Source of the DNA: Micromonospora sp. WMMA1363
GTDB lineage: Bacteria > Actinomycetota > Actinomycetes > Mycobacteriales > Micromonosporaceae
Length of the DNA stretch: 64,000 bases
Reading direction: 5' to 3'
Assembly (NCBI RefSeq): GCF_030345795.1
Contig: NZ_JAUALB010000004.1
Coordinates: 62,001 to 126,000 of the forward strand
Below, piece after piece: positions 8,192 through 29,400 of the stretch. Both the position numbers and the translations under genes were made by a program. Positions within the stretch are counted from its first letter, which is position 1; the number at the start of each line of letters is the position of its first letter. The notes under the pieces are model-generated. The model was not told the origin of the DNA and ran no database searches. It saw nothing but the letters and a program-made list of their open reading frames with translations.

Positions 8192-8307
8192 CAGCAGGCG
8201 CAAAGGGGCAGCATAGCTAGGCAGACCTACTTCTGGGATGGGCCTGACCCGGTTTGACGGACATCCCAGCTCAGAGGGGCTGTGTGCTCCTCGGGAGGAT
8301 GTTCATC

Positions 8308-8619
8308 ATGGAAGGCATGGGCAAGAAACCACGCCGGCCGCGCAGAGCGTTCACGCCGGAGTTCAAGGCGGAGATCGTCGAGGTGTGCCGGCGGGGTGAC
8401 CGATCGGTGGCGCAGGTCGTGAGGGACTTCGACCTGACCGAGACCGCGGTCCGTGAGTGGGTCAGGCAGGCCGACATCGACGCCGGCACCCGCAGCGACG
8501 GGTTGACCAGCGACGAGCGCGACGAGCTGGCGCGGCTGCGGCGGGAGAACCGCCGGCTCCGCGAGGACGTCGACATCCTGAAACGGGCCACGGCTTTCTT
8601 CGTGAGGGAGACCCGGTGA
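8308..8619 (+). CDS. IS3-family transposase OrfA
   Basis: 103 residues from ATG 8308, nine bases after a GGGAGG box (8293-8298). In-frame ATG 8299 and an upstream TTG are less likely starts. The N-terminal helix-turn-helix of IS3 OrfA (FTPEFKAEIVEVCRRGD ... TAVREWVRQ) is followed by a leucine-zipper-like helix (LARLRRENRRLREDVDILK). It binds the IS ends together with OrfB. Its stop overlaps the OrfB start (GTGA), consistent with coupling or frameshifting to an OrfAB fusion. Confidence 0.92.
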   Translation: MEGMGKKPRRPRRAFTPEFKAEIVEVCRRGDRSVAQVVRDFDLTETAVREWVRQADIDAGTRSDGLTSDERDELARLRRENRRLREDVDILKRATAFFVRETR

Positions 8620-11790: not shown

Positions 11791-12295
11791 CCACAAAACC
11801 CTGATGTCGTACCTGCGTCGTGGTTCGGGCCGTTGCTCCCGCCGTCACCGGGCGGGGGCCCACCAGTGGGCCCCCTCGCCCTGCCATCTCCGCGTCCAGG
11901 ACCACACCGCGGCCCGCGGTTCGCCGGCGCCGGCCGGTCGCGGGTGATGCCGGCGGCATCACCAGAGGGCCGGGTCGTAGGGCCTCTCCCCCACCACGGT
12001 GACCGAGCTATCGACCCTGCGGGCCGATGGCCTTCAGCCGGACCAGCGTGCCGCCGCTGGACCGCGGCCCCTCCGGGGAGGAACACCACCAGGATGGGGG
12101 CCGATCCATCCCGGCGGCGCTGCCACAAGGGCAACCACGGCCAGCGCCGGGCCGCAACCAAACCCCGGTTGCAGCCCGACACCGACCGTGGTCGGTCACG
12201 ACCAGCGCCGCCGGGATGGATCTCACACCGAACCCCGGGCACGAAAAAACCCCAGGTCAACACCCCTCCAACCCAGCAAGTGTGCTAGAATTTTA
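11791..12295. repeat. 505-bp perfect direct repeat, copy 1
   Basis: Identical, as far as I can read, to 19029-19533. It holds a hairpin GGGGGCCCAC/GTGGGCCCCC (11854-11875), the dispersed palindrome (11944-11962), a 20-bp perfect inverted repeat (12103-12122 and 12203-12222) enclosing ACCGACC-GT-GGTCGGT (12181-12196), and at its right end the promoter box GTGCTAGAATTTTA. Short reading frames cross it but none has protein-like composition. A structured RNA or a control region is more likely than a gene. Confidence 0.92.
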
Positions 12296-12296
12296 G
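12280..12296 (+). promoter_or_regulatory. Promoter box 1 (extended -10)
   Basis: GTGTGCTAGAATTTTAG. TGC plus TAGAAT (12286-12291) reads as an extended -10 element. CTAGAATTTTAG is also an imperfect palindrome that a repressor could bind. Near-identical boxes lie at 14253, 15207 and 19518. No -35 hexamer is evident. It is 65 bases before the GTG of the diguanylate cyclase. Confidence 0.7.
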
Positions 12297-12360
12297 ATAT
12301 CGGCGGGACGGCGAACCCCACCGATCGCCACACCAGACCAACCTCTCTGAGGAGCGCTCA

Positions 12361-13053
12361 GTGCCCGGACTCACTGAAATCCTGCTCGGCACCACGACTG
12401 CATCCTGTCTCGCGCTGCTCTGGCGATGCGCCCGCCTCCAGACCGCCCTGACCACGGCCGAACACGACGCCCGTCACGACGCCCTGACCGGTCTGCCCAA
12501 CCGTCGCGCCCTGCTGGCTCACCTCCAGGCCCAGCTAGCCGACCGCACCCGCCCGGTCTCCGCCGCTCTGCTCGACCTCAACCGATTCAAGGACATCAAC
12601 GACGAGCACGGCCACGCCGCTGGCGACGCTGTCCTACGGCACGTCGCCCACACCCTCACGGCGCTGAATCTCCCCGGTGCCTACGTCGGCCGCCTCAGCG
12701 GCGATGAGTTCCTGATCATCACCAATGGCGGGTTTGACCACGGCGACGCCAACGCCCGCGCCGCCGCCCGCGCGCTGGCCGCAGCAACGGTGCCCTTCTT
12801 CGGAACAACCTTTCGATGCGCCGCCAGCATCGGCACCGCCACCGCCACCGCCACCGCCACCGCCGACGACAACGACACCAGCGCCGAGCAGTTGCTATCC
12901 CGCGCAGACGTCGCCATGTACCACGCGAAGCGCCTAGGCGAAGACGTCATGTCGCACTTCCCGTACATGGAGGAAGAAGCCGTGTCGCACCTCCCGTACC
13001 CCGAGGAAACGACCGTGCTCGCCCGACGAGTCCACCGCCGCCGCTTCCGGTAG
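12361..13053 (+). CDS. Diguanylate cyclase (GGDEF domain)
   Basis: 230 residues from GTG 12361, with GAGGAG just upstream. One N-terminal membrane helix (residues 4-21) is followed by a single GGDEF domain. DALTGLPNRRA is at 40-50, LDLNRFKDIND at 71-81 with the metal-binding Asp, and the active-site loop RLSGDEFLII has Ser for the first Gly (SGDEF, 113-117). It should make cyclic di-GMP from two GTP if the variant loop is active. No EAL or sensor domain is seen. A (ACCGCC)n tract near 12835-12866 encodes TATATATA and could vary in length. In actinomycetes c-di-GMP controls development through BldD, so a mobile element carrying a cyclase might alter host development. Confidence 0.88.
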   Translation: MPGLTEILLGTTTASCLALLWRCARLQTALTTAEHDARHDALTGLPNRRALLAHLQAQLADRTRPVSAALLDLNRFKDINDEHGHAAGDAVLRHVAHTLTALNLPGAYVGRLSGDEFLIITNGGFDHGDANARAAARALAAATVPFFGTTFRCAASIGTATATATATADDNDTSAEQLLSRADVAMYHAKRLGEDVMSHFPYMEEEAVSHLPYPEETTVLARRVHRRRFR

Positions 13054-13058
13054 CACCC

Positions 13059-13090
13059 GGTCGGGGCGGTCCGATGCGACCGCCCCGACC
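13059..13090. terminator. Intercistronic hairpin
   Basis: GGTCGGGGCGGTC, six-base loop, GACCGCCCCGACC, just after the diguanylate cyclase stop. Similar strong hairpins follow several genes in this run. They may terminate or attenuate transcription or protect mRNA 3' ends. Confidence 0.6.
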
Positions 13091-13154
13091 ACCCGCACAG
13101 CGAGAGGACCGGCGAACCCCTCTCGACAACCACCGAACCCAACCAGGAGAACCC

Positions 13155-13607
13155 GTGTCAGCCTCCACCGCACCCACGATGACCCTCCCGATCCTGACCA
13201 CCCCGCCCGCAGAACGCCGTATCCACCAGGTGTGCGAGCTGCTCGACCAGGCCCGCCAGCACATGGAGCAGGTGACGAGCCATCTGCATCTGTGCGAGCA
13301 CGCCCCCATGTGGCCCACGGCGACCATCAACGACGCCAGGACCGCTCACGACTTCCGCGCCACCACCGTGGAACTGATCAAGTACGCCCGCCGCCACCAG
13401 TGCGCCGACACGAACCCCGGCCGCATGCGCGCCCTGCTCCGACTCGCCGTGATGTGTCTGGACCTGTCGCAGATGGGCAAGCGCTACGTCTGCAATCCCA
13501 GCATCTACCCGCTCACCCTCACCCGCCGCACCGCACGGATGCTGCACGACACGGCGCGATGGGCCACCACCGGACAGGCTCGATACCTCCTCGGCCAGCC
13601 GACCTGA
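13155..13607 (+). CDS. Hypothetical protein
   Basis: 150 residues from GTG 13155 with AGGAGA eight bases upstream. It is mostly helical and soluble (RIHQVCELLDQARQHMEQVTSHL; NPGRMRALLRLAVMCLDLSQMG). It contains His and Cys residues but no clear metal motif or membrane segment. I do not recognise it. It belongs to the run of backbone genes behind promoter box 1 and is followed by a 12-bp stem hairpin at 13614-13642. Confidence 0.65.
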   Translation: MSASTAPTMTLPILTTPPAERRIHQVCELLDQARQHMEQVTSHLHLCEHAPMWPTATINDARTAHDFRATTVELIKYARRHQCADTNPGRMRALLRLAVMCLDLSQMGKRYVCNPSIYPLTLTRRTARMLHDTARWATTGQARYLLGQPT

Positions 13608-13613
13608 CCGCAC

Positions 13614-13642
13614 GTGCCCGGCCGCCGACAGCGGCCGGGCAC
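13614..13642. terminator. Intercistronic hairpin
   Basis: GTGCCCGGCCGC, loop CGACA, GCGGCCGGGCAC, seven bases after the preceding stop codon. Perfect 12-bp stem. Confidence 0.6.
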
Positions 13643-13729
13643 GACCGGACCGCCCAACGGCATCGACGCGCATCGAGCGCGCCGACGCCGGCTACCGCTC
13701 CCGTCACTCGCGATCGCAGGAGACCGACC

Positions 13730-14233
13730 ATGACCAGCACCACCGACCGTCCCCGCCCCACTCGCATGGATACTCTCACCATCGCCCCGTACCCCACCGG
13801 CCCCGAGTACGGCTGCGAACCGGCCGCCCGAGAAATCGCCGAAGCGGTCTGCCGCCTGTACGGCGGCGACGCATGGCGAGCCGAGCACCGATCGCCAGCA
13901 TGGCCCCACCCCGAGAACGAAATTCACGGCGAGTTGACCATCACGGTCAACAACCTGCGGACCGTCGTGCACCGGCACACCGTCCCCGCCCACACGCACC
14001 GGGACCTGTTCACCCTCACCGTGGACGGCCGCCCCGTGCCCGCCCACCTGCCTCGCCACCGCCTGTCCCACGCAACGGAAACCATCGTCGCCAACCTCTG
14101 GCGAGACCTGCACAAGATGTCGCCGGCCGGATGCGACCACTTGGGATGCCCCGACGTGCCCACGGTCCTCACGTTCGGCGCCGCCCTCTGCCCCGTCCAT
14201 GCCCAGCGGTACGCGGAAACCGGACTGACCTGA
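13730..14233 (+). CDS. Hypothetical protein
   Basis: 167 residues from ATG 13730 with AGGAGA upstream. The middle part is strand-rich (GELTITVNNLRTVVHRHTV; RDLFTLTVDGRPVPAHLP). The C-terminus has a possible zinc-binding pattern, CDHLGCPDVPTVL then CPVH. The family is unknown to me. It is in the backbone operon downstream of the diguanylate cyclase and just before promoter box 2. Confidence 0.65.
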   Translation: MTSTTDRPRPTRMDTLTIAPYPTGPEYGCEPAAREIAEAVCRLYGGDAWRAEHRSPAWPHPENEIHGELTITVNNLRTVVHRHTVPAHTHRDLFTLTVDGRPVPAHLPRHRLSHATETIVANLWRDLHKMSPAGCDHLGCPDVPTVLTFGAALCPVHAQRYAETGLT

Positions 14234-14252
14234 CTAACACTCAGGCTGGCAA

Positions 14253-14270
14253 GTGTGCTAGAATTTTAAG
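14253..14270 (+). promoter_or_regulatory. Promoter box 2
   Basis: GTGTGCTAGAATTTTAAG, with TAGAAT at 14259-14264 as extended -10, 36 bases upstream of the ArdC-like gene. It is identical to boxes 1 and 4 over the first 16 bases. Confidence 0.7.
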
Positions 14271-14305
14271 TACAGGGCCGAGTGGCCCAGGACAGGAGTT
14301 CACCC

Positions 14306-15205
14306 ATGCCCCGCAAGTCGACCGCCCGAACCGCCACCCCCCGCCAGCGCGCCAGCCGGTACAGCGCCGAGCAGATCCAGGAGTTCCGCCAGCGTGACCG
14401 GCAGGTTATGAACAGCTCCACCGAGCACCTCGAAGACGCCGAAGGGATCCGCCGCTTCGCGCAACACGCCGCGATGGGCGGCGTGTCCCTGCGGATCCTC
14501 TCCTACAGCCTGCGAAACCAGGCCCTGCTAGCGCAGCAGGCGGACGAACGCGGTTTCGTCCTGTCCGACGTGGACAGCTTCAAGGGATGGCGGCAGCGCG
14601 GCCGGTTCGTCAAGAAGGGTGAAACCGGACTGCGGCTGATCAAGCCTGTCGGCAAGGACAAGAAGGACACCGACGCCGACGAGCCGGAGACCTCCGACGA
14701 GCACGACGACGACAACACCGAGGACGCCGACGAGACGGGCGAGGACACCGGCAAGCCCAAATTCCGCACCGGCGTTGTCTATGACATCGCCCAGACCGCC
14801 GAGATCCCGCCCGAGGAGCGCGGCGAGTGCGCCGCCTGCAACGCCGAGGTTGGCGAGCCGTGCAACCCCGGATGCCTCTGCCCCACCTGCACCAACTATG
14901 AGCCGGTGAGCGACGCCGCAGAGATCATGTGGAACAACCTCCTCGACCAGCTCACCGCCGCCGGGTACGCCCTCGACTGGCCCGCCCCGGCAGACGCCCT
15001 GCACGGCCACCGCGTGCACGTCGACCACGACGGCCGCACCGTCGCCGCCGCATACGAAGTCACGGCCGAGCACCCCGCCGCCGTGGCCGACCTCGCCGCC
15101 GCCGTGGCGCAGATCATCGCGCGCAGCGACCGAGAGCGGGAAACCCGCCGGGAACAGCGCCGCGTCGCTCGCGCCACCCTCGCTGCAACGCCTGCCACCG
15201 CATAG
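14306..15205 (+). CDS. ArdC-like antirestriction protein
   Basis: 299 residues from ATG 14306 (AGGAG upstream). The N-terminal half matches the ArdC N-terminal ssDNA-binding domain: YSLRNQALLAQQADERG, then VDSFKGWRQRGRFVKKGETG and LRLIKPVG. A long acidic linker (Asp/Glu/Thr, about residues 115-150) separates it from a Cys-rich patch (CAACNAEVGEPCNPGC) and a helical C-terminus. ArdC proteins protect incoming plasmid ssDNA from restriction; the metalloprotease half of classical ArdC is not evident. Promoter box 2 directly precedes it and box 3 directly follows. Confidence 0.75.
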   Translation: MPRKSTARTATPRQRASRYSAEQIQEFRQRDRQVMNSSTEHLEDAEGIRRFAQHAAMGGVSLRILSYSLRNQALLAQQADERGFVLSDVDSFKGWRQRGRFVKKGETGLRLIKPVGKDKKDTDADEPETSDEHDDDNTEDADETGEDTGKPKFRTGVVYDIAQTAEIPPEERGECAACNAEVGEPCNPGCLCPTCTNYEPVSDAAEIMWNNLLDQLTAAGYALDWPAPADALHGHRVHVDHDGRTVAAAYEVTAEHPAAVADLAAAVAQIIARSDRERETRREQRRVARATLAATPATA

Positions 15206-15206
15206 C

Positions 15207-15221
15207 GTGCTAGAATTTTAG
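15207..15221 (+). promoter_or_regulatory. Promoter box 3
   Basis: GTGCTAGAATTTTAG, with TAGAAT at 15211-15216, starting two bases after the ArdC-like stop codon and 48 bases upstream of the DUF2786 gene. Confidence 0.7.
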
Positions 15222-15269
15222 GCACGGGGAGGGTGCGCCCTCCCCGTGCCTCCTCACCAGGGAGGCACC

Positions 15270-15998
15270 ATGACCAGCCCCACCGACCCCCGCGCAAAGA
15301 TCGCCGCGCGCATCGCCGCCTGCCTCGCAGTCGCCGAAAGGGAGACAACACCGCTCGGCGAACGCGAGGCCGCCGCCGCGAAGGCCGCCGAACTCATCGC
15401 CCGCCACGGCATCACCGCCGACCAGGCAGCCGCCGCCCGAGGCGACGCCCCCGAAGGCATCACCTGTGCACCCGTCGCCCTGCTCAACACCGACGGGCAC
15501 GGCGAAGCCCGCGCCGGCCTGGCGGACGACGTCGCCCGAGCGATGGGCTGCCGCGCCATCTTGAAGCCCACTCGCGCCCCACGCCCCTACACCGTGATTG
15601 TGGTCGGTGCGACGTCCGACGTTCACCACCTGCGGCAACTCCTTCCGCTGATTCTCGCCCAAGCCCAGGCCGCCGCCGCGAACACCGATCCCGAGCAGCG
15701 CCGCGCCCGAGACTTCCTCTCCTCGTTCCTGTCCGGCTACGGCGACACCGTCGCCGAGCGGATCACCGCGCGCCGCCGCCCGCTGACCGACCCAACCACC
15801 AACCCCGGCGCAGCGCTCATCCTCGCCGACCGCGCCAAGCGGATTGACGCCTTCATCGCCGAGCGATTCGGCGACCTCAACGAGCGCACCCACCAGGCCA
15901 GCCGGGACGGAAAGAACGCCGGCCGCACCGCCGCCCGCCGCGCCGACATCGGAGACCCCGGCGTCAAGGCCACCAGCCGCCGCGCCCTGCCGACGTAA
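15270..15998 (+). CDS. DUF2786-domain protein
   Basis: 242 residues from ATG 15270 with GGGAGG upstream. The N-terminal helical pair (ACLAVAERETTPLGEREAAA ... AAELIARHGITADQAAAA) is the DUF2786 signature. The middle carries GHGEARAGLADDVARAMGC and a VIVVGATSDV strand, and the C-terminus is basic (SRDGKNAGRTAARRADIG). DUF2786 proteins are common on phages and plasmids but have no settled function. A shorter paralogue follows at 16137. It is transcribed from promoter box 3. Confidence 0.8.
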   Translation: MTSPTDPRAKIAARIAACLAVAERETTPLGEREAAAAKAAELIARHGITADQAAAARGDAPEGITCAPVALLNTDGHGEARAGLADDVARAMGCRAILKPTRAPRPYTVIVVGATSDVHHLRQLLPLILAQAQAAAANTDPEQRRARDFLSSFLSGYGDTVAERITARRRPLTDPTTNPGAALILADRAKRIDAFIAERFGDLNERTHQASRDGKNAGRTAARRADIGDPGVKATSRRALPT

Positions 15999-16009
15999 CC
16001 GCCGGCCAC

Positions 16010-16117
16010 GGGGTCGGGCGCTCGATGCGCCCGACCCCGCGCGGGGCGCTCACGCGCCGCCCCCGCACCCCGGCTACCCCGCCCCACTCACCCACCGACC
16101 GATGCCGCCGGCATCAC
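16010..16117. repeat. Hairpin-palindrome block, copy 1
   Basis: The hairpin GGGGTCGGGCGC-tcgat-GCGCCCGACCCC (16010-16038) is followed by GCGGGGCGCTCACGCGCCGC and ends with the dispersed palindrome core (16101-16115). The block recurs at 16677-16785, and without the palindrome at 21221-21300. Stem bases differ between copies but stay paired. Confidence 0.85.
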
Positions 16118-16136
16118 CCGAAAGGCAGACCCGAAG

Positions 16137-16664
16137 ATGATCACGCCCACCCCCAACCCCATCGACCACATCGCCGCACACCTCACCGTCGCCACCGACC
16201 CGACCGCCCCCGCCGCCGTGCGCGAGAACGCCCGTCGCACCGCGGCAGAGCTCATTGCCCGCCACGACATCACCCCCGCCGAAGCCCGAGCGGCCTGCGG
16301 CACCCGACACTCACGACTCACCATCACCACGCACCCCGTTTCCGTTGCCGACGGCCACGGCGAGGCCCGCGCAAGCCTCCTCATCGGCATCGCCGAAGCG
16401 CTCCGCTGCGAAGGCGTCCACCAACCCGCCACCACACCCGACGACTACGGAGTCGTGCTACTCGGCACCGCCGCAGAGGTCCGCGCCGCCCGCCGGCTCA
16501 CCGACGGGATCTTCGCCGACATCGACAACGCCTTCCCCACCGGCGACCCCCAGCTACCCGACATCCTCGCCACCATGCGCCAGCGCCTGCGCGCCGCCGC
16601 CGAAGACCTCCGCGCCGTCCACCAGTGCGCCGAAGACCTCACCGAGCACCAGCCCCGAACCTGA
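16137..16664 (+). CDS. DUF2786-like protein (paralogue)
   Basis: 175 residues from ATG 16137 with a GAAAGG box upstream. It shares the DUF2786-type N-terminus with the preceding gene (AAELIARHDITPAEARAACG versus AAELIARHGITADQAAAARG) and the GHGEARASLLIGIAEALRC segment, but lacks the long basic C-terminus. It is a tandem duplicate that has diverged. It lies between two copies of the hairpin-palindrome block, suggesting the block and gene were duplicated together. Function unknown. Confidence 0.75.
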   Translation: MITPTPNPIDHIAAHLTVATDPTAPAAVRENARRTAAELIARHDITPAEARAACGTRHSRLTITTHPVSVADGHGEARASLLIGIAEALRCEGVHQPATTPDDYGVVLLGTAAEVRAARRLTDGIFADIDNAFPTGDPQLPDILATMRQRLRAAAEDLRAVHQCAEDLTEHQPRT

Positions 16665-16676
16665 CCGCCGCCACCA

Positions 16677-16785
16677 GGGCCGGGCGCATCGAGCGCCCGG
16701 CCCCGGGCGGGGCGCTCACGCGCCGCCCCCGCACCCCCGGCTACGCCGTCCCACTCACCCACCGACCGATGCCGCCGGCATCACC
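16677..16785. repeat. Hairpin-palindrome block, copy 2
   Basis: GGGCCGGGCGC-atcga-GCGCCCGGCCC (16677-16703), then GCGGGGCGCTCACGCGCCGC and the dispersed palindrome core (16768-16782). It follows the DUF2786-like paralogue and precedes the next gene. Confidence 0.85.
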
Positions 16786-16807
16786 GGACACGAACGGACC
16801 AACCCCC

Positions 16808-17401
16808 ATGGCCACCGCGCCCCGATGGAACCAGCACCACACCGCCGAAGACGTCCCATGTCTCTGGTCGCTCATCCCCACCACCGACCCGGCCACCACC
16901 TCGCGATGCCCCGCCGGATGCGCGACCAGCATCATCGAACAGCCCGGCCACGCCCGCCTGGACGCCCTCAACGTGATGGCCCTCGCGGTGCTCCACCACG
17001 CCGCCGAGACCCACCACACCATCCGCGGCGCCGACATCCCCACCGAAGTCCACGACAGGCTCCTGCGCACCAGACACCTCACCCCCGACCCCGCCCGCCC
17101 CGGCACCTACCGCGCCGCCCTGCCGTGCAAGTGCCCGCCCGGCGAGCCCATCGCCGGCCAGCACCGGCGCGACTGCCCCGTCACCAGGACCTACGACCAC
17201 CTCGCCGACGCCCTCGACGAGCTGACCCACAAGGCCGCCCAGGCCAGCGAGGCGTACGACGACCTCGCCACCCTGCTCACCCCTGCCGACGCCGCCGACC
17301 TGGCCGACCACCTCGCCCTTCTCGACCAAGCCACCACCGCCCTGGCCCAGCTGCGCGACCACGCCGACCGCATGACCAACCCCGCCGCCGCACCCCACTG
17401 A
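16808..17401 (+). CDS. Hypothetical protein with Cys pairs
   Basis: 197 residues from ATG 16808. ATG 16769, inside the palindrome, is an in-frame alternative, and neither has a good ribosome-binding site. The N-terminus WNQHHTAEDVPCLWSL, then CPAGCATSIIEQPGHA, resembles the 98-aa protein at 21349 (WNYHRNGYDDWCPWSM, then CPADCPASTIEPATAGH), so the two are paralogues. The middle has CKCPPGEP...RDCPV and the C-terminus is a helical hairpin. Possible zinc-binding protein of unknown role. Confidence 0.6.
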   Translation: MATAPRWNQHHTAEDVPCLWSLIPTTDPATTSRCPAGCATSIIEQPGHARLDALNVMALAVLHHAAETHHTIRGADIPTEVHDRLLRTRHLTPDPARPGTYRAALPCKCPPGEPIAGQHRRDCPVTRTYDHLADALDELTHKAAQASEAYDDLATLLTPADAADLADHLALLDQATTALAQLRDHADRMTNPAAAPH

Positions 17402-17409
17402 CAACCCCG

Positions 17410-17435
17410 GGGCGCGGCCGGCACCGGCCGCGCCC
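17410..17435. terminator. Intercistronic hairpin
   Basis: GGGCGCGGCCG, four-base loop, CGGCCGCGCCC, eight bases after the stop of the preceding gene and 15 bases before the next ATG. Confidence 0.55.
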
Positions 17436-17450
17436 GACCCGGAGCACACC

Positions 17451-18284
17451 ATGACCGACCGCCGCACCCTCCCCCTACCCAGCCCCTACACCGACCTCAA
17501 CACCGCCGAAACCATCAACCCCGACACCGGCCGCGTCACCTACCGATTCCGCGCACCCCGCGCCGCCGGAACGACCGTCATCGGACCCGAGTTCCGAGGC
17601 GAAGACTCCCCCATCCCCACCCTCATCTACGCCCAGTTCGGCGACGACGCCTACAACGACAACGACCGCGCCGACCGACCCGTCATCAACGGCGTCACCA
17701 TCACCGGCGGCATCATCCTCAACCCCACCGAATACCTCGCCCGCCCCGACGGCGGCTACATCGGACTCCGCCGCAGCATCGACCGCTGGACGAACACCAG
17801 CGCACCGGTCGCGACCAGCCGCTACGGATCCGCCATCATCCGAACCCTGCTCACCGCCTGGCACGAACGCCCCGACCGCGACGACCTCATCCACGCCGCC
17901 GCCCGACACGCCGCGCCCCGACGCCTCGCAGAACTGCGCCGACACACGATCGACCCGATCAAGGCGCAGATCGACAAGCTTTCCGACCAGCTCGTCGACC
18001 ACTACGCCCTCGCCGGCCAACTGACCCGCCTCGCCGCCGAGTACGAAGCCACCCGCACCGACCCCCAGCACCCCGACCCGGAGCGCACACCCTCATGGCA
18101 CCGACCGACGCCACCACCGCGCCCACCCGATACCCTGACCGGCGTACGGCAACCGCCCGCCGCCCGCCCACCAGCGGCCGTAGGGCGGCTCGCCGTACGG
18201 CCGCCGCACCACCGCCGTATCCCCTCACCGGCCCAGGTCCGGCGACCACCGTCGCCCGCACCCGAGCCCGCGAGGACCCCGTGA
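17451..18284 (+). CDS. Hypothetical protein
   Basis: 277 residues from ATG 17451 (GGAGCACACC upstream). The first 200 residues look folded (GRVTYRFRAPRAAGTTVIGPE; PTLIYAQFGDDAYND; RYGSAIIRTLLTAW) and end in a helical pair (QIDKLSDQLVDHYALAGQL). The last 70 residues are Pro/Arg-rich and probably disordered. The family is unknown to me. Its stop overlaps the next start (GTGA), so the two genes are translationally coupled. Confidence 0.65.
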   Translation: MTDRRTLPLPSPYTDLNTAETINPDTGRVTYRFRAPRAAGTTVIGPEFRGEDSPIPTLIYAQFGDDAYNDNDRADRPVINGVTITGGIILNPTEYLARPDGGYIGLRRSIDRWTNTSAPVATSRYGSAIIRTLLTAWHERPDRDDLIHAAARHAAPRRLAELRRHTIDPIKAQIDKLSDQLVDHYALAGQLTRLAAEYEATRTDPQHPDPERTPSWHRPTPPPRPPDTLTGVRQPPAARPPAAVGRLAVRPPHHRRIPSPAQVRRPPSPAPEPARTP

Positions 18285-18829
18285 CCACACCCGGCCAGCA
18301 CGACCGCACCGACGACCCCGCCGTGCCCACCCGCCTGGTCGACGGCCACCTCTGCACCAACCGCGCCGGCATCGCCCACCTAGCCGGCTGGACCCCCGGC
18401 AACTCCGTCAACGTCCGCGCCCGCACCGACCCCGACTTCCCCACCCACCTACGAAAGATCGGCCGCGACTACTGGTACCCAATGGACCGAGTCGACACCT
18501 ACCTCGCAGCCCTCGCCGAACGCGCCGCCGCGAAAAAACCACCCGCCGTCAAACCCGGCGACCCAGACGACGACCTCCACGGCGACGAGGCCGCAGACGC
18601 CCTCCACATCGCTGCGGCAACCCTGCGCAGCTACGTCCGGTACTCCATCCCCTACTGGACCGGCGAGAGGGAAGGCCGCCCCCTCCTCCCCCCGCCAGAC
18701 ATCGAGGAAGAACGCGAAAACAAATTCGGCCCCTACACCCACCGAGCCTGGTACCGACGCACCCTCGCAGCCCACCAAGCCCAGCGCCCCGGCCCCGGCA
18801 CCGGAGCCGGCCGCCCCCGCGAACAGTAG
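18281..18829 (+). CDS. Putative DNA-binding protein with two HTH-like segments
   Basis: 182 residues from GTG 18281, overlapping the preceding stop by four bases; the longer upstream open frame is read-through of the previous gene. Two similar segments resemble winged-helix/excisionase folds: NRAGIAHLAGWTPGNSVNV ... DYWYPMDRVDTYLAAL and DEAADALHIAAATLRSYV ... YTHRAWYRRTLAAH. A role in excision, replication or regulation of the element is plausible but not shown. A strong terminator hairpin follows at 18850-18888. Confidence 0.65.
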   Translation: MTTPGQHDRTDDPAVPTRLVDGHLCTNRAGIAHLAGWTPGNSVNVRARTDPDFPTHLRKIGRDYWYPMDRVDTYLAALAERAAAKKPPAVKPGDPDDDLHGDEAADALHIAAATLRSYVRYSIPYWTGEREGRPLLPPPDIEEERENKFGPYTHRAWYRRTLAAHQAQRPGPGTGAGRPREQ

Positions 18830-18849
18830 CCAGCACCCCGAAACACACA

Positions 18850-18888
18850 ACGGCCGGAGGGCAAGTTTGGCGAACCCCCTCCGGCCGT
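18850..18888 (+). terminator. Terminator hairpin
   Basis: ACGGCCGGAGGG (18850-18861) and CCCTCCGGCCGT (18877-18888), perfect 12-bp stem, 20 bases after the stop codon of the preceding gene. It closes the first block of backbone genes. Confidence 0.75.
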
Positions 18889-19028
18889 CTAGCGACGACG
18901 CCACACCGGCCCCAACCAGGCCAAACGCCGAACACCTACCCCCCATCCTACCGAAACAACCACCAGCCGCTGCGTCGGGACCGCGGCCCACACAACCTGG
19001 CCCCAACCGACCACAGCCCGCTCCGAAC

Positions 19029-19533
19029 CCACAAAACCCTGATGTCGTACCTGCGTCGTGGTTCGGGCCGTTGCTCCCGCCGTCACCGGGCGGGGGCCCA
19101 CCAGTGGGCCCCCTCGCCCTGCCATCTCCGCGTCCAGGACCACACCGCGGCCCGCGGTTCGCCGGCGCCGGCCGGTCGCGGGTGATGCCGGCGGCATCAC
19201 CAGAGGGCCGGGTCGTAGGGCCTCTCCCCCACCACGGTGACCGAGCTATCGACCCTGCGGGCCGATGGCCTTCAGCCGGACCAGCGTGCCGCCGCTGGAC
19301 CGCGGCCCCTCCGGGGAGGAACACCACCAGGATGGGGGCCGATCCATCCCGGCGGCGCTGCCACAAGGGCAACCACGGCCAGCGCCGGGCCGCAACCAAA
19401 CCCCGGTTGCAGCCCGACACCGACCGTGGTCGGTCACGACCAGCGCCGCCGGGATGGATCTCACACCGAACCCCGGGCACGAAAAAACCCCAGGTCAACA
19501 CCCCTCCAACCCAGCAAGTGTGCTAGAATTTTA
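19029..19533. repeat. 505-bp perfect direct repeat, copy 2
   Basis: Same sequence as 11791-12295, offset by 7238 bases, including the palindrome (19182-19200), the long inverted repeat and the promoter box at the right end. The stretch 18889-19028 before it holds nothing I recognise. Confidence 0.92.
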
Positions 19534-19535
19534 AG
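19518..19535 (+). promoter_or_regulatory. Promoter box 4
   Basis: GTGTGCTAGAATTTTAAG, with TAGAAT at 19524-19529. The leader that follows resembles the one after box 1 (GACGGCGAACCCC, then ACACCAGACCAACC). 67 bases before ATG 19603. Confidence 0.7.
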
Positions 19536-19602
19536 TGTGAGGGAGGGGGACGGCGAACCCCCCAACCGCACACCACACCAGACCAACCACTGAGGGAAAC
19601 CT

Positions 19603-21105
19603 ATGACCACCCACGGCGATGGCCCCACGCCAGACGTCCAGCGATACGGCTGCGCAACCTGCCGTACCCCCCTGAACACGTTCGAGAGCCCCGGCAACCC
19701 GGTTGTCTTTCTCCACCCCGGTAACACCACCGCGAACCACGACCCCGACCCGGTGCCACTGAGCCAGCTGCCCACGGTTGAGGCCGTCTGCGACTTCTGC
19801 TCCGCGCCCAACCCGGTCGCCTCCTTCGCCTTCAGCAGCCTCGAAATCGTCACGGTCGACGAAGACGACAGCCCCACGATGACGCACGACCTAGGCGGTA
19901 ACTGGGCCGCGTGCGAAGGATGCGCCCGCCTTGTCGCGACACGCGACGTTGCAGGCCTGACGGCCCGCGCCGCCAGACGAGCCCGCCGACGCGGCATCCC
20001 CGCCACCGCAGCGACATTCGGGCCACTGCATCAAGCGCTGTTCGCCGCGACGCCCCTCACCCCACCCCGCCTGCCGTTGCGCGGCACCGCCGCCCAGCCG
20101 TCCACCACCCCCGACGTTCGATCGATCCGACCCCAAGCGTTGCCCAAGGTGCGCGATCGACTCGTCAGGTTCTGGCGCAACGCCGGCGAAGCCTTCGTCC
20201 TAGAGTCGCTTAACATCGGAGCCGGCTACAGCGTCCCCGGCCACATGATCCCCGGAGCACCGCTGCACGCCTCCGTCATCCGCGACCTCACCGGCGAACT
20301 CATCAACCAGTACACCGCCCTTATGAGCAACCACGTCGAGAACGGCAGGCTGTTTTGGGTGGACAGCGAGTTTACGGCTCTCGCCGCCCATGCCGCTCGG
20401 GACCTCCCCGATATCCGCGTCCAGCCGGCCGAACTGCCCACGTCTGACGGCCTGCTCGTCTGGCAGGACCCGATCGCATGGCTCAACGATCACGAAGCGG
20501 GCACCACCATGCCGGTAACGGCCGTCTCCTGGGGACCGATCCCCGGAGGCGTCTGGGTCGTGTTCTACACGCCAGCCGAAACCGTCCTCACCGAATCCGG
20601 CCAGATCACCGAACAGCGGTTCCAACGCCTTCGCGATCGCATCGGATGGTTCGCGCCCGTGCACACCGGTACCGCACTGGTCTACGGCGAGAACCACGAC
20701 GCCGAGTCCGACGACAGTCGCAAGCTCCTTACCGCCCTCATTGCGACATGGATCCTCACCACCCAGCCCGACGCCGAAATCACCGAAAAACCGGCCGACA
20801 AGGCCACCCGCAAGGCGTACAAACGAACCAAGCGCCCCGCGCCCGTCGTGCGTCTGGTCAGCCTGCGCCGCAAACAGCAGACCCGCACCGAGGAGACCAC
20901 CACCGGCAAGACCCGCACCTACACCCGCCGATGGTGGGTAGCGGGATTCTTCCGCGAACAGCCCTACGGCCCCGGCCGCGCCCTACGCCGCCGTACCTAT
21001 GTGCGCCCACACATCAAAGGCCCAGCCGACGCCCCGCTCATCCTCACCGACCAGGTAAACATCCTCGGCCGCAACACCGACCAGCATCCGAGGGAGAACC
21101 GATGA
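19603..21105 (+). CDS. Large hypothetical backbone protein
   Basis: 500 residues from ATG 19603 (GAGGGAAACCT upstream). The N-terminal 130 residues have three Cys pairs (CATCRTPL; CDFCSAPN; CEGCARLV), probably zinc sites. The middle is a mixed alpha/beta region (VWVVFYTPAETVLTESGQ). The C-terminus RRWWVAGFFREQPYGPGRAL ... RRRTYVRPHIKGP is a motif I have seen in proteins of actinobacterial plasmids and phages without a known function. It has its own promoter (box 4 at the end of the second 505-bp repeat), which suggests a central backbone role. It could be involved in replication, but nothing proves that. Confidence 0.75.
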   Translation: MTTHGDGPTPDVQRYGCATCRTPLNTFESPGNPVVFLHPGNTTANHDPDPVPLSQLPTVEAVCDFCSAPNPVASFAFSSLEIVTVDEDDSPTMTHDLGGNWAACEGCARLVATRDVAGLTARAARRARRRGIPATAATFGPLHQALFAATPLTPPRLPLRGTAAQPSTTPDVRSIRPQALPKVRDRLVRFWRNAGEAFVLESLNIGAGYSVPGHMIPGAPLHASVIRDLTGELINQYTALMSNHVENGRLFWVDSEFTALAAHAARDLPDIRVQPAELPTSDGLLVWQDPIAWLNDHEAGTTMPVTAVSWGPIPGGVWVVFYTPAETVLTESGQITEQRFQRLRDRIGWFAPVHTGTALVYGENHDAESDDSRKLLTALIATWILTTQPDAEITEKPADKATRKAYKRTKRPAPVVRLVSLRRKQQTRTEETTTGKTRTYTRRWWVAGFFREQPYGPGRALRRRTYVRPHIKGPADAPLILTDQVNILGRNTDQHPRENR

Positions 21106-21173: not shown

Positions 21174-21220
21174 CCACCGGCATGTCCGGGGCTCGACAAG
21201 ACCGGACCACCGCCGGCCAC

Positions 21221-21300
21221 GGGTTCGGGCGCATCGAGCGCCCGAACCCGTGCGGGGCGCTCACGCGCCGCCCCCGCACCCCCGGCTACCCCGCCTCACC
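21221..21300. repeat. Hairpin block, copy 3
   Basis: GGGTTCGGGCGC-atcga-GCGCCCGAACCC (21221-21249) then GCGGGGCGCTCACGCGCCGC, as in the copies at 16010 and 16677 but without the palindrome. The following gene is a paralogue of the one after copy 2. Confidence 0.85.
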
Positions 21301-21348
21301 CTCCGCGCCAAACCTGGCCACCCACAGGAACACCACCGGAGCGACGAC

Positions 21349-21819: not shown

Positions 21820-23538
21820 ATGGCCCGCAGAGGTAGTGGCCTCGCAAGCAACCCGCTCGCCCAGCTCAAGCAGGAAGAAGAGCGGATGGAGAAGGCAGCC
21901 GTCGAGGCTGCCCAGGCCACCGGTGCCACCATCCAGGAACTGACCATCGGGGAGGTCGCCCCGGACCCTGAAAACCCCGAGAGCCGCCTCTCCCCCGACG
22001 ACAAGCTCGTTGCGTCGATCAAGGCCGAAGGCCAACTGTCGGCCGGAGTGGTCGTCCCGGTCGACGTCTGGGTGAGCTACGGCAACGACGTGACCCTGCT
22101 CTACACCGCCACGGCTTCCCTGATCTTCGGCGTGCCGGTCGACTCTGTGACCGACGAGCAGCGCGACAAGGCCAAGGAGCAGATCAAGTACGTCATCAAC
22201 TTTGGTCACCGCCGGTGGGCCGCAGCCCGCGCCGCCGGACTGAACGCCTACCGCGCGGTCGTGTCCGACACGCTCAAGGACAACACCACCAAGCGCATCC
22301 ACCGGCTGACGGAGAACGTCCTTCGCGAGAGCTACACACCGCTGGAAGAGGCCCGCGAGTTCAAGCGCCTCATCGAGGAGGACAAGCTGGGCCAACGGGA
22401 GATCAGCCGCCGCACCGGCATCCCGCAGCCGTACATCTCCAAGCGGATCGGTCTGCTCAACCTCCCCGACGACGCCCAAGCCGCACTCCGCGAGGGAATC
22501 ATCCCTGTCGAGGCCGCCGTCGAGCTGGCAAAGATCGCGAAGGACGCCGCCCGCATCAAGAAGGTCATCGACGCTGTCGTTGCCATGCCCGCCAAGACCG
22601 ACGCCGACCTCACCGCCCGTTCCCGCCTCGCCGTCGACCAGGCCCGCAAGGAGTACAACGCCCACAAGGCCATCAAGGACAAAGCCGACAAGCGCAAGAA
22701 GCTCACCGCAGAGGGCATCGTCCCCATCGACAACCCCACCACCTACTTCTCCGACAAGCCCGGAACCCGGTTCGACTACCAGATCCACGACGACGACCAG
22801 ATCACCGCCGCCCGCGAGGCAGGAACCCTCGCCGCCTACGTCGTCACCGGCGATCACATCGAGTACTACCTGACCGAGCTGCCGCAGCCGCCCGAGCCCG
22901 AGGAGCCGGAGGGAACCGACGACGAGTCGCAACCCACCGACCCGGACGCCGAGGCCGCCGACGCCGAGACGACCGCCGACGCGGACAGCGAGACCACGCC
23001 CACCGCCACGGGCACCGTCGTGAAGGTCGAGCGCACCAGCACCACGATCCCCGCGCCCCGCGCCACCCAACCGCAGGAGACGGAGGAACAGCGGGCACGC
23101 CGGGAGGAACGCGAAAACGAGGAGCGCGAACACGCGGCAGCCGCCAACGCCCGCGCGGCAGCCTGCGCCCGGATCGCCGCCAAAGCACCCAGCCGCGAAG
23201 CCCTCACCGCCCGACTCGCCCGCCGAATCCTGCTGGTCGAGGAAGACCACAACTTCGAGGCGCAACAACTCGCCGTGAAGTGGCTCAAGGCCGCCACCGT
23301 CGTCGACGAGTCCACCACCGTCTACACCCTGTTCGGCTACGACACCAACATCGACGCCAAACTCGCCGCCCGCGCCGCCTACGTCTACGACCTGGCCCTG
23401 TCCGAGATCCGGGCGCAGGACAGCATCGAATACGACACCGAGGACGCCCAGCACATCAAGCGGCTCATGGACGACGCCGCCTACGAGCCGGCCGAGTGGG
23501 AGCAGCAGGCCCTCCTCGAAGCAGCCGACGAGAAGTAG
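21820..23538 (+). CDS. ParB/KorB-like partition protein
   Basis: 572 residues from ATG 21820 with AAGGAG upstream. The N-terminal ParB/Srx-like domain carries INFGHRRWAAARAAGLNAYRA and RLTENVLRESYTPLEEAREF. The central helix-turn-helix is KLGQREISRRTGIPQPYISK. The C-terminal 250 residues include a long acidic linker and a helical domain ending near 572. These are ParB/RepB/KorB hallmarks: binding centromere or operator DNA and possibly spreading with CTP. It precedes parA and is much longer than typical plasmid ParB. A second, small ParB-like gene follows parA, so this protein may instead be a global KorB-like repressor of the backbone promoters. Confidence 0.85.
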   Translation: MARRGSGLASNPLAQLKQEEERMEKAAVEAAQATGATIQELTIGEVAPDPENPESRLSPDDKLVASIKAEGQLSAGVVVPVDVWVSYGNDVTLLYTATASLIFGVPVDSVTDEQRDKAKEQIKYVINFGHRRWAAARAAGLNAYRAVVSDTLKDNTTKRIHRLTENVLRESYTPLEEAREFKRLIEEDKLGQREISRRTGIPQPYISKRIGLLNLPDDAQAALREGIIPVEAAVELAKIAKDAARIKKVIDAVVAMPAKTDADLTARSRLAVDQARKEYNAHKAIKDKADKRKKLTAEGIVPIDNPTTYFSDKPGTRFDYQIHDDDQITAAREAGTLAAYVVTGDHIEYYLTELPQPPEPEEPEGTDDESQPTDPDAEAADAETTADADSETTPTATGTVVKVERTSTTIPAPRATQPQETEEQRARREERENEEREHAAAANARAAACARIAAKAPSREALTARLARRILLVEEDHNFEAQQLAVKWLKAATVVDESTTVYTLFGYDTNIDAKLAARAAYVYDLALSEIRAQDSIEYDTEDAQHIKRLMDDAAYEPAEWEQQALLEAADEK

Positions 23539-23628: not shown

Positions 23629-24552
23629 ATGCCCAACGCTGCCGCAACCGATGCCGCCGGCATCACCCCGCCCAACCAGCGAACCCCCGGAAACCGGGAA
23701 ACACGACGCGCCGCCGCCCGCATCACCCGGAGACTGATCCGCGCGGTCGTCATCGCAGTGGCGAACCAGAAGGGAGGCAGTGGCAAGACCACCACCATCC
23801 TCGCCCTCGCCGGTGAACTCGCCCGACGCGGCTACCGAGTCCTCGTCATCGACTGCGACGAACAGGGCAACGCCACCACCGGCCTCGGTGTCCCCGTCGC
23901 CCAGGGGGACACCGAAGGCACCTACTACCTGCTCATGGACGACGAGGCCAAACCGGCCGACGTCATCGTGCCCACCCCGCACGAGAACGTCTCCCTCATC
24001 GCCGGAGGCGAGAAGCTGTCCGAGGTCGCGGCAGCACTCGCCAGCGAGATGGGCAACCACACCTTCCTCTCAGCACACGTCGGGACCCTGCGCGACGAGT
24101 TCGACGTCATCCTGCTCGACACCCCGCCCGCGCTGTCCCTGCTGACCATCAACGCCCTCTACGCCGCTGACGAGATCGCCACCCCGATCAACCCAGGAGA
24201 GTTCGACCTGCGCGGCATCGCGCAGCTGACGAAGACCGTCAAGCGGATCAACACGCGACTGAACAAGACCATCGAGATCGCCCACGTCTTCCTCATCAAC
24301 TTCCGGCCCCGCCGCCGCAACGACCAGGACGCCTACCGCTTCGTCAAAGAGGCATTCCCCAACGCCCTGATCGACACGGCCGACCCGCAGCCCGACGAGG
24401 AATGGCACGGCAGCGGAGTTCCCCAATCCGCGACGGTAAACAGCTCACAGAGCGCCGGTGTACCCCTCACCCTCTTCGAGCCCCGCACAGCGGTCAGCCG
24501 TGCCTACTGCCGCATCGCCGATGTCATCGAGCGCAGGAGCCTCCGTGGCTAG
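23629..24552 (+). CDS. parA: ParA-family partition ATPase
   Basis: 307 residues from ATG 23629 (AGGAG six bases upstream). Deviant Walker A is NQKGGSGKTT (residues 46-55), followed by VLVIDCDEQGNATTGLG and the Walker B-like strand FDVILLDTPPALSL. It positions plasmid copies by ATP-dependent binding to nucleoid DNA. The N-terminal extension before the ATPase fold contains the dispersed palindrome as coding sequence (DAAGIT, 23650-23664). Its stop overlaps the start of a small gene that fits the partner centromere-binding protein. A 34-base stretch (24131-24164) reappears inverted at 38670-38703. Confidence 0.92.
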   Translation: MPNAAATDAAGITPPNQRTPGNRETRRAAARITRRLIRAVVIAVANQKGGSGKTTTILALAGELARRGYRVLVIDCDEQGNATTGLGVPVAQGDTEGTYYLLMDDEAKPADVIVPTPHENVSLIAGGEKLSEVAAALASEMGNHTFLSAHVGTLRDEFDVILLDTPPALSLLTINALYAADEIATPINPGEFDLRGIAQLTKTVKRINTRLNKTIEIAHVFLINFRPRRRNDQDAYRFVKEAFPNALIDTADPQPDEEWHGSGVPQSATVNSSQSAGVPLTLFEPRTAVSRAYCRIADVIERRSLRG

Positions 24553-26339: not shown

Positions 26340-26455
26340 ACGCGCCGAAGGCGCGTGCTGACCGACGAAGCGGAGCCGCAAGCGGCCCAGCACTTTCTGA
26401 CCAGTCGATCAGCTACACACCTACTGCACTATTAGTGATCTTGTAAGGTAGAAGC

Positions 26456-29400
26456 GTGATGACCCTTCACCCACTGCACGGTGGCGACGGCTACACCTAC
26501 CTCACTCGCGAGGTAGCCACGGCCGACTTCCGCCGTACCCGAGGTGAGGCGATCACCGACTACTACCACGCCGACGGCAACCCACCTGGCCAATGGGTCG
26601 GCCGCGCCCGCGAAGAACTCGACATCTCCGGCACGGTCAAGGAACACCAGATGCGGGCCCTTTTCGGGGAAGGACTGCACCCCAACGCCGACGCCATCAT
26701 CGAGAAACTGATCGACGGCGGCGTCGACCCCAAGAAGGCCGAAGCCCAAGCTCGCCTCGGCCGCAAGCCGCTCACCTACGAGCCCACCGACACCTACCAG
26801 GAACGCGTCAACGAGCGGTACGCGGCCCACCGCCGTATCACCGGAACCGACCCCACCGACCACGAGAAGACCCGCCTCGCCCGAGCGGTCGGCGCCAGAA
26901 TGTTCGCCGAACAGCACGGCCGCCGACCCCGCGACATCACCGAACTCAACCAGTACATCGCCCAGGTCGCCAAACCACAGCCGCAGGCCGTCACCGGCTA
27001 CGACCTCGTCTTCACCCCGCCCAAGTCGGCGTCCGTGCTGTGGGCACTCGGCGACGACGCCACCCGCCGCGCCATCGAGGACGCGCACGAACAGGCATGG
27101 CGGTCGGTCCTTGCCGATGCCGAGAACACCGTCATCAAAACCCGCGCCGGGAGGGCCGGAGTCGCCCAACTCGACGCCACCAGCGGCGTCATCGCCGCCG
27201 CGTTCCGACACCACGACAGCCGGGCCGGCGACCCCCTCCTCCACACCCACCTGGCCATCGCCAACCGGGTCAAGGCCCCTGACGGCCGCTGGCGCACCAT
27301 CGACGGCCGCGCTCTCTTCGCCGCCAAGGTCCAGATGTCCGAGAGCTACAACGCCCGCGTCATGCACGGCATCGCGCAGCGCCTGGACGTCGCCGTCGTG
27401 CCCGTCGACGCCGGCCGCGGACGCCGCCCCGTCTACGAGATCGCGGGCATCCCCGCTGGCCTACGCACCCTGTTCAGCGACCGCCGCGCGAGCATCAACG
27501 CCCGCACCACGGAACTCGTCGACGCCTACGTGCGCGACCATGGCCACGCCCCCACCGAAGAGGTGCGCCACCAACTCGCCCAGCAGGCCACACTGGATGC
27601 CCGAGCGCAGAAACAGCACGCCCGCAGCCTCGCGACCATGCGCGGTGAATGGCGACAACGGGCCGTCGCCGAAGTCGGCGAACGCCGGGTGACCAGCCTC
27701 CTCAACGACGCCCGCAAAGAGGCCCGCCGCCTCGCCCGGGACGCGGCCAAACGCGGTGATGCCGCCGACATCACCGCCGAGGTCTCCGACGAGCGGGTCA
27801 CGCAACTGGCTCGCTCCGCCGTGACCACCGTGGAGCAGCAACGCGCCACCTGGACCCGCCATCACATCGAGGCGGAGGTACACCGACAGCTATCCGCCGC
27901 CGGCCTCGGCACCCGCGCAGACGTCGCCGAACGAGTCAGCGCCGCAGCGCTCCAGCGCGAGTCGGTCCGCATCACCGCACCAACGACCGAGCCCGTCATG
28001 CCGGACCTGATGCGCCGCGACGGCGAGTCCGTATTCACCCACACGCAAACCGTCCGCTACAGCTCCGAGCGCATCCTCAACGCCGAACAGCGGGTCATCG
28101 AGGCCGCCCGGACCACGGTCATCGCACCCATCTCCGGCCAGACCTTCGACCGCACACTCGCCGCATTCGAGGCGACGCCGGGCAACCGCCGGCTCGACCC
28201 CGGACAGGCCGCAGTCGCCCGCGCGTTCACCACCGACGCGCGGCTTGTGGTGGCCGGCATCGGACCCGCAGGCGCCGGCAAGACGACCACCATGCGCGTG
28301 GTCGCACGGGCCGTCGAAGCCGGCGGAAGCCGCGTCATCGCCCTCGCCCCATCAGCCCGGTCCGCCGCCGTTCTCGCCGAGGAGCTATCGGTCCCAGCGC
28401 ACACCATCCACCGGTGGCTGTGGCACCGCAACGCCGGCACACGCGCCGACACCTGGCAGCTTCGCGCCGGTGACGTGATCCTCGTCGACGAGGCTGGCAT
28501 GGCCGGCACCCTCAACCTCGATGCCGTCATCGCCGCAGCTCGCCAGGCCGGCGCTGTCGTCCGGGTCCTCGGCGACCCGCAGCAGCTCGGCGCCGTCGAG
28601 AGCGGCGGGATGCTTCGCCTGATCCAGCGCGAGGCCGGCGCCGTCGAACTACACCACCTGCACCGCTTCGCCAACACCGACGAAGCACTCGCGTCGCTGA
28701 AGCTGCGCGACGGAGCCGACGACTCATGGCGCTGGTACTGGAGCAAGGACCGCATCCGCCACGGCGACCGGGACGCCATGCTCGACGCGGTCTACCAGGC
28801 ATGGCGGACCGAGAACACCGCCGGTGACGTGTCCCTGATGATCGCCCCCACCAACGACGACACCCGCCGCCTCAACGACCGCGCCCGCACCGACCTGATC
28901 GCCGCCGGGCACGTCGAAGCAACCGGTGTAGAGCTACACGACGGCACCACCGCCGGCCGCGGCGACCTCATCGTCACCCGCCGCAACGAGAGCCGACTCC
29001 GCCTGTTCCGAGGCCGGGACATGGTGCTCAACGGCGACGTGTGGCGCGTCGAGGATCGGCACCGCGACGGTAGCCTCACCGTCCAGCACACCCAGCACGG
29101 TGCCCGCATCAGCCTTCCCCGCGCCTACGTCGCCGCAGACGTCGAGCTGGCCTACGCCACCACCATCCACCGCACCCAGGGCATGACCGTCGACAAGGTA
29201 CACGCCATCGTCGATGGCCCGGTCAACCGCGTCCAGGCGTACGTCGCACTCACTCGGGGCCGCCTCGCCAACCGGCTCTACGTCACCACCGACGCCGGCG
29301 CCCGCCGCGTCCACGCTGTGCTCGACTCGATCCGGCGCAACGTCGGCGCCGCCGTGTCGGCAACCGAGGAGATGCGCGAATCCCTCGCCGCAGCCGAGTA

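Follow-up and report, generated by a model that had tools for sequence, protein, structure and literature searches.

The window analysed here is a stretch of 64,000 nucleotides of Micromonospora sp. WMMA1363, comprising C4:62001-126000 of contig C4 (NZ_JAUALB010000004.1; 143,715 bp), and it contains a pair of 505-bp repeat units, each standing upstream of a gene and ending in a promoter-like box. The first 38 kb of C4 recur at its end with 99.8% identity and 64 gap openings, and the contig is therefore a circular plasmid of ~105.5 kb read 1.36 times, the over-reading suggesting that long reads were used; both copies of the unit lie within the singly read part. The host is a soil actinomycete, and the plasmid encodes a MOBF relaxase. 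From 11.2 to 31.0 kb all placeable genes lie on the plus strand, with the exception of one low-scoring open reading frame (ORF) of 54 aa, and follow each other in the order GGDEF, ArdC-N, DUF2786, a 500-aa protein, ParB, ParA, and the TrwC-type relaxase, with one unit preceding the GGDEF gene and the other the 500-aa gene (Table 1).

The two copies are identical at 505 of 505 bases, with the exact match breaking off at each edge, and their starts lie 7,238 bp apart, bearing out the perfect repeat of the initial annotation and making its 7.2 kb spacing more precise; the genes flanking them, there described as divergent, are all on the plus strand. No further full copy was found in the 6.48-Mb assembly. 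Beyond the -10 box the loci are still 96.9% alike over 572 bp, 5′ leader included, since a related 5′ leader continues at both, and the edge of the exact match is therefore not the edge of the module. Alignment of the unit with its counterpart in a sister plasmid, G124, requires 14 gap openings in 506 columns, several of a single base, and the unit is thus non-coding, as had been thought. The structures named previously (a 10-bp hairpin, a dispersed palindrome, and a 20-bp inverted repeat around a hairpin) are all present, and the extended -10-like box TGTGCTAGAATTTTA ends both copies. Two exact copies would also be expected of an element resembling a miniature inverted-repeat transposable element, or of an assembly artefact, however the flanks, read by eye, show neither a target-site duplication nor terminal inverted repeats at the unit edges, just two copies exist in the genome, and the same pair is found in another genome, leaving this explanation extremely improbable. 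A single copy duplicated in assembly, envisaged earlier as the finding that would overturn the repeat, is itself unlikely, because the same kind of duplication is present in G124.

Directly after the -10 box lies a hairpin with the loop ACGGCGAAC (with rare variants), the GGCGA core of which is nearly invariant, and the stem of which varies between modules. Covariation was assessed across 18 leaders (14 distinct) for a stem of 15 pairs, with 68.1% of cells paired compared with 58.3% in shuffles, 20 cells changed on both sides compared with 10.3 ± 2.4, and a covariation score of 0.220 compared with 0.101; none of 500 shuffles reached the observed value in any of these measures (0/500 each), and every slid register scores lower. 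A covariance model of the leader matches 11 of 151 genomes of the genus, own included, at E <= 1e-3, and with the marginal G088 and G089 (E 9e-4) left out of the strong set, eight further elements carry the leader. In a scan of 397 genomes of the order, matches lying outside the genus numbered three (E 4.1e-6, 7.1e-5, and 9.2e-5) and were not counted; by eye none has a -10 before it, and the first two have related loops. Hairpins with GGCGAAC-type loops and no -10 lie shortly upstream of homologues of the gene at 13137 in five elements, own included. The loop-plus-stem rule alone is not specific, giving 37 gene-strand and 15 other-strand matches over 614 kb. As the leader is attached to the gene irrespective of the promoter, we infer that it acts on RNA, and the earlier suggestion of a structured regulatory RNA gains partial support, in that the 3′ end of the unit leads into this covarying hairpin.

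The twin arrangement recurs in related elements. In G124 the unit pair stands at the same two genes, with 99.6% of 557 bases alike within that plasmid and 85.2% between plasmids, and a short stretch with an extra promoter and leader sits between its first copy and the GGDEF gene. Four further elements (G109, G033, G131, and G140) carry, ahead of the 500-aa gene, a unit of different sequence. In G109 and G033 this unit also precedes the GGDEF gene, with copies 99.8% of 432 and 98.1% of 471 bases alike respectively, and compared across these two elements it is 89% alike; the two loci of G131 and G140 have only about 110–170 bp in common. In two lineages, therefore, with copies far closer within than between elements, there has been concerted evolution or repeated re-duplication at the same genes: the twin copies are homogenised and kept. 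Loss of the intervening 7.2 kb by homologous recombination, raised in the initial annotation, is possible in principle, although the pair has been kept in G124, G109, and G033. A GGDEF homologue and a TrwC relaxase lie on one strand and in the same order in all eight of the eight related elements, the fetched stretches of which also contain a homologue of the 13137 gene (7/8), the 500-aa gene (5/8), and, in G124 only, ParA and ParB.

The polarity of transfer can be predicted from a motif ahead of the relaxase gene. Of 37 regions ahead of relaxase genes of this family, 20 contain the sequence ACACACCTCTTGCA on the gene strand (<= 2 mismatches), located at -39 to -380, compared with none of the 37 on the other strand and 3 of 1850 shuffled sequences; the regions comprise 30 loci, the present plasmid being one, out of 83 matching genomes, together with seven related elements, and two of the upstream stretches are shorter than 400 bases. 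In seven further plasmids a nic-like motif is present in four (<= 2 mismatches, within 600 bases, no shuffle control). The string TGC-N4-GGTGTG is common to the complement, TGCAAGAGGTGTGT, and to the nic region of F; in F it lies at 66156 of the minus strand, rightward of the plus-strand leading genes, and has one other match in the same 24-kb stretch. In the window the motif occupies 26415-26428, with two mismatches, and a small inverted repeat, CACTAATAGTG, lies 5′ of it in the minus-strand sense; the predicted cut was placed according to the nic cut position in F. Were this site the oriT, the minus strand would enter first, leftwards, as the template of the block genes. The motif thus suggests that the co-directional block forms the leading region and that its genes have the transferred strand (T-strand) as template.

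Within the unit, the 20-bp length of the inverted repeat was never reached, for either copy, when the 300 nt preceding the promoter were dinucleotide-shuffled 100 times; in G124 one base pair is gone from both arms, and two more changes of the left arm are unmatched. Nine of 16 modules have an exceptional longest perfect inverted repeat, in that no more than one of 100 shuffles attains it. The T-strand of six units folds with z of -3.8 to -11.0 against their own shuffles, compared with -6.6 and -7.3 for the Frpo regions of F (12 shuffles each), and for four type-B units a long consensus hairpin was obtained. Searches of plasmids by blastn with the 505-bp unit, and with the promoter plus leader, gave no matches, the Rfam 15 covariance models at gathering score found none in the window and none in four related loci, and an Rfam 15 search of the unit returned two matches, both far under the cut-off.

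Table 1. Coordinates of the repeat units, their internal structures, promoters, leader hairpins, genes, and predicted nic region in the window.
Feature	Position	Strand	Evidence or remark
Unit copy 1	11791..12295	+	Upstream of GGDEF gene; G124 counterpart 85.2%
10-bp hairpin	11854..11875 (copy 2: 19092-19113)	.	Unchanged in G124
17-bp palindrome TGATGCCGGCGGCATCA	11945..11961 (copy 2: 19183-19199)	.	Belongs to the sites dispersed over the plasmid
20-bp inverted repeat around inner hairpin	12103..12222 (copy 2: 19341-19460)	.	Arms 12103-12122 / 12203-12222, perfect
Extended -10-like promoter TGTGCTAGAATTTTA, copy 1	12281..12295	+	
Leader hairpin, GGDEF gene, loop ACGGCGAAC	12287..12334	+	Covariance model R1, 52 bits, E 2e-13; model-building sequence
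GGDEF gene, first after copy 1	12361..13053	+	Pfam PF00990, E 2.5e-32
Intercistronic hairpin without promoter, loop GGCGAAC, before gene at 13137	13101..13125	+	Covariance model R1, only E 1.1
Third TGTGCTAGAATTTTA promoter, without long unit, before ArdC-N gene	14254..14268	+	
ArdC N-terminal-domain (antirestriction-like) gene, between copies	14282..15205	+	Pfam PF08401, E 5.1e-9
One-base promoter variant CGTGCTAGAATTTTA, then hairpin 15226-15245, before DUF2786 gene	15206..15220	+	
DUF2786 gene, between copies	15246..15998	+	Pfam PF10979, E 2.7e-10
Unit copy 2	19029..19533	+	Upstream of 500-aa gene; 505/505 identical to copy 1
Extended -10-like promoter TGTGCTAGAATTTTA, copy 2	19519..19533	+	
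Leader hairpin, 500-aa gene, loop ACGGCGAAC	19529..19576	+	Covariance model R1, 55.6 bits, E 1.4e-14; model-building sequence
500-aa gene, first after copy 2	19603..21105	+	PHROG 15934, E 2.8e-36
ParB-like gene	21820..23538	+	Pfam PF17762, E 1.2e-12
ParA-like gene	23629..24552	+	Pfam PF13614, E 1.2e-48
Predicted oriT nic region, CACTAATAGTG-CAGTAGGTGT^GT	26415..26437	-	GGTGTG core as in F
TrwC-type MOBF relaxase	26456..31024	+	Pfam PF08751, E 7.7e-77

A close architectural parallel is with Frpo1/Frpo2 (ssi) of the F and ColIb-P9 leading regions, which are likewise near-identical twin non-coding blocks a few kb apart (PMC9849209; PMC11541004). According to the account in PMC9849209, Frpo1 and Frpo2 are 92% alike, lie about 5 kb apart, and are required for early expression; the authors of that study note that recombination between them could lose the intervening DNA. 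Analysed as a control, F yielded a 548-bp repeat, 90% identical, 5.4 kb apart, and before early genes. In both systems co-directional early genes follow near-identical copies, the transferred strand is the template (predicted here), and folding exceeds that of shuffles; the nic-like motif and gene orientation agree on a leading-region position with the T-strand as template, the oriT here being a predicted one. In contrast to Frpo, the -10 of the present unit lies outside any hairpin, and a conserved leader hairpin follows the promoter.

These differences bear on whether the unit could be a strict single-strand promoter, in which folding of the T-strand renders the -35 and -10 double-stranded and RNA polymerase starts on single-stranded DNA, as Frpo1/2 of F are described as doing (PMC9849209). 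The predicted leading region, the near-identical twins 7.2 kb apart, the predicted T-strand template, and an anatomy as in F would all suit such a promoter. However, a hairpin pairing the -35 and -10 was not found in the unit, with the best complement of the 20-mer around the -10 having 10 mismatches, the window unit yielded no AT-rich hairpin, compared with the AT-rich paired segments of F Frpo2, and when the T-strand of the window copies is folded most of the -10 hexamer stays unpaired, that of G124 being partly paired. This explanation, at first favoured, was dropped on the basis of the T-strand folds and the lacking -10 complement, and is now considered very unlikely. A related proposal is that of a single-strand initiation site, with the hairpins of the unit priming second-strand synthesis rightward through the promoter, such that the promoter is made double-stranded first. 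The geometry fits, with a primer at the unit being extended toward the promoter, the gene, and the predicted oriT, and the T-strand of six units folds more stably than shuffles; however, no primase or primosome site was identified, no search for one having been made, the T-strand is not favoured by the G.T/A.C counts, 7 of 16 modules have long perfect inverted repeats no better than chance, and the intergenic leader hairpin is left unexplained. We regard an initiation site as distinctly unlikely, and for the replication locus proposed in the initial annotation no support was found here.

A second comparison is offered by EGeRS1 of the pLS20-family Bacillus plasmids, described in PMC8708921 as repeats of 420–750 bp with many inverted repeats before five establishment operons, one with ardC. 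EGeRS1-B is reported to stop read-through in its native orientation and to be promoter-less, with the transferred strand not the template (PMC8708921). The 505-bp copies here, only two in number, are of comparable length, contain inverted repeats, and stand ahead of genes for which an establishment role is predicted. The present unit differs from EGeRS1 in possessing a -10-like box and in having the T-strand as predicted template, as opposed to the non-template in pLS20, and the ArdC gene here stands behind a promoter alone, without the unit. No similar sequence was found among plasmids; by analogy the unit may work like Frpo1/2 or EGeRS1, although the tests applied place it in neither group. 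Cluster K mycobacteriophages possess SAS/ESAS repeats, described as located at the translation starts of many genes and about half with inverted repeats (PMC3203893); these are likewise short repeats at gene starts in an actinobacterial mobile genome, but differ in sequence, the present hairpins having a conserved loop and residing in conjugative elements.

Hairpins analogous to the Micromonospora leader were found in Streptomyces. In three Streptomyces and one Kitasatospora MOBF plasmids, the genes before the relaxase are nearly all co-directional, and when scanned by one rule for the loop NTGGCR the three Streptomyces stretches, with 17, 15, and 17 gene starts, yielded 11, 10, and 9 distinct hairpins respectively and that of Kitasatospora one, all 31 of them on the gene strand and none on the opposite one. 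The 10-mer GAGGGCAACC is found upstream of 7 of 13 Kitasatospora genes. Several of the Streptomyces and Kitasatospora hairpins are intergenic, with no visible promoter. A 61-base promoter-leader module of pZL1 occurs at 18–25 places in each of six Streptomyces plasmids and at two in a seventh (141 in total), with no annotated feature under the best place of each plasmid. In complete pZL1, all 21 of the 21 NTGGCR hairpins with a downstream CTCGAA tag lie in the leading block, the bounds of which we drew from the annotation, and on the gene strand, with 14 lacking a -10 by the pattern used and one positioned 58 bases before the pZL1 GGDEF gene; a looser rule places 23 of 28 hairpins in that block on the gene strand. 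Three Micrococcales plasmids, from Curtobacterium, Arthrobacter, and Cryobacterium, show no such motif, with only CAGAAATCTA recurring in the Arthrobacter plasmid, before 4 of 12 genes. Of these seven actinobacterial MOBF plasmids, five have their type IV secretion-like genes past the relaxase and on the opposite strand, and the leading genes are co-directional in the four from Streptomyces and Kitasatospora and more mixed in the three from Micrococcales. A Streptomyces leading-region island is shown in PMC11541004, the main text of which contains no match for ArdC, GGDEF, DUF2786, or hairpin, and no description of the Micromonospora, Streptomyces, or Kitasatospora hairpins was found in the literature searched.

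In actinobacteria, terminators are commonly long GC hairpins that follow genes. The module could be an ordinary duplicated double-strand promoter with terminator hairpins, the identity of its copies being a passive by-product of recombination, unlinked to entry into a new cell. The box is a plain extended -10-like one, and the tests of unit structure are mixed, as such a promoter would allow. However, a unit of unrelated sequence is duplicated at this very pair of genes in other elements, the leader hairpin shows conservation together with covariation, and the analogous tagged hairpins of pZL1 are confined to the leading block, and an ordinary promoter is consequently judged unlikely.

We consider it moderately probable that the repeat serves as a cassette controlling establishment genes, which would lie in the leading region of this conjugative MOBF plasmid. 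Each cassette would consist of an insulator, a promoter, and an RNA leader of an establishment regulon. The nic-like site would make the minus strand the transferred strand, and hence the template of the block genes; the structured stretch may shield the promoter from read-through, by analogy with EGeRS1-B of pLS20 (PMC8708921); and the promoter would fire on arrival of the plasmid in a new cell. The leader hairpin would act on the RNA, through stability or translation, such that the establishment genes respond together, and gene conversion would hold the two copies equal. The initial annotation is thus partly supported, its duplicated control locus standing insofar as a promoter-bearing module precedes two different genes.

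Several observations weigh against this cassette model. The unit itself, at E <= 1e-20, is present in 2 of 160 genomes of the genus, namely the present plasmid and G124, and G131 and G140 have a long unit before just one of the two genes. In 7 of the 16 modules, among them both units of G124 and those of G109 and G033, 8–100 of 100 shuffles match the longest perfect repeat, and the type-B unit is without net covariation support (term +0.44, with two-sided change in 6 of 110 pairs). Among ten control windows of 505 nt taken from this block, one has a lower raw energy than the unit (-160.8 vs -156.1), and all 10 of 10 likewise fold more stably as the T-strand, the strand asymmetry of the unit therefore proving nothing. 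For the leader, pairs with two-sided change number 8 vs 6.7 in shuffles, with 136 of 500 shuffles reaching 8. As a test of the folding strand, wobble pairs in the Micromonospora leaders amount to 10 G.T and 11 A.C; those of the Streptomyces hairpins (16 G.T vs 6 A.C) weakly favour RNA, and are only suggestive. Finally, 17 of the 37 relaxase regions lack the nic-like motif at <= 2 mismatches, six of which show, by eye, a form one base longer.

A broader proposal, which we advance only tentatively, is that conjugative MOBF elements of several actinobacterial families control establishment genes at the RNA level, via hairpins that begin many cistrons of the leading region, whether or not these have their own promoter, and that have lineage-specific loops (GGCGAAC-type in Micromonospora, NTGGCR in Streptomyces, and AGGGCAAC in Kitasatospora). 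A single factor, which donors would possess and new recipients lack, would read these hairpins, the outcome being post-transcriptional zygotic induction, with the 505-bp cassettes as the main promoters. The switch-on of defence-blocking genes within minutes of entry has been worked out for few plasmids, namely F and ColIb, which use single-stranded DNA promoters, and p576, which uses a repressor. For pLS20, PMC8708921 leaves the mechanism of similar repeats open, and for actinobacteria no study of entry control was found in the literature searched. The twin cassettes, predicted nic site, and leader hairpin constitute a concrete and testable model, to which pZL1 adds 21 analogous hairpins. The presence of a GGDEF gene before the relaxase in all eight relatives, and in the leading block of pZL1, may indicate that a second messenger matters on entry.

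Relatives of the 500-aa gene (E <= 1e-8) occur in 45 of 151 genomes of the genus, own included, mostly as partial matches; its product has no Pfam match above the cut-off, PF26125 standing only in the precomputed annotation, and PADLOC returned no match for ten proteins of the block. A second family of intercistronic hairpins, with a GCATCGAGC-type loop, is present in the block at 15998-16093, 16664-16759, and 21209-21304, with a similar sequence preceding the relaxase in related elements, and CATCGAGCCG stands upstream of 5 of 13 Kitasatospora genes. Just ahead of the relaxase gene, at 26294-26339, lies a 46-nt palindrome with 22-bp perfect arms and a 2-nt loop, kept in G124.

The 17-bp palindrome TGATGCCGNCGGCATCA is dispersed over the window (6273-53389) and C4, with 39 sites (<= 2 mismatches) on the 105.5-kb plasmid, 43 on the 119-kb plasmid of G124, and at most one in each of the stretches fetched from seven other elements. 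As ParB and ParA were found, among these elements, only in the two palindrome-rich plasmids, it may be a plasmid-wide ParB site. A tandem array at C4:50910-51125, of about four 48-bp units each with a TGATGCCGNCGGCATCA-type palindrome, is a candidate centromere or origin. Adjoining the block are a Tn3-type transposase gene (window 2927-5959) and two ORFs which, judged from their translations, resemble an IS3-type element (8254-9512), and an Fe/Mn superoxide dismutase gene lies at 1969-2595.

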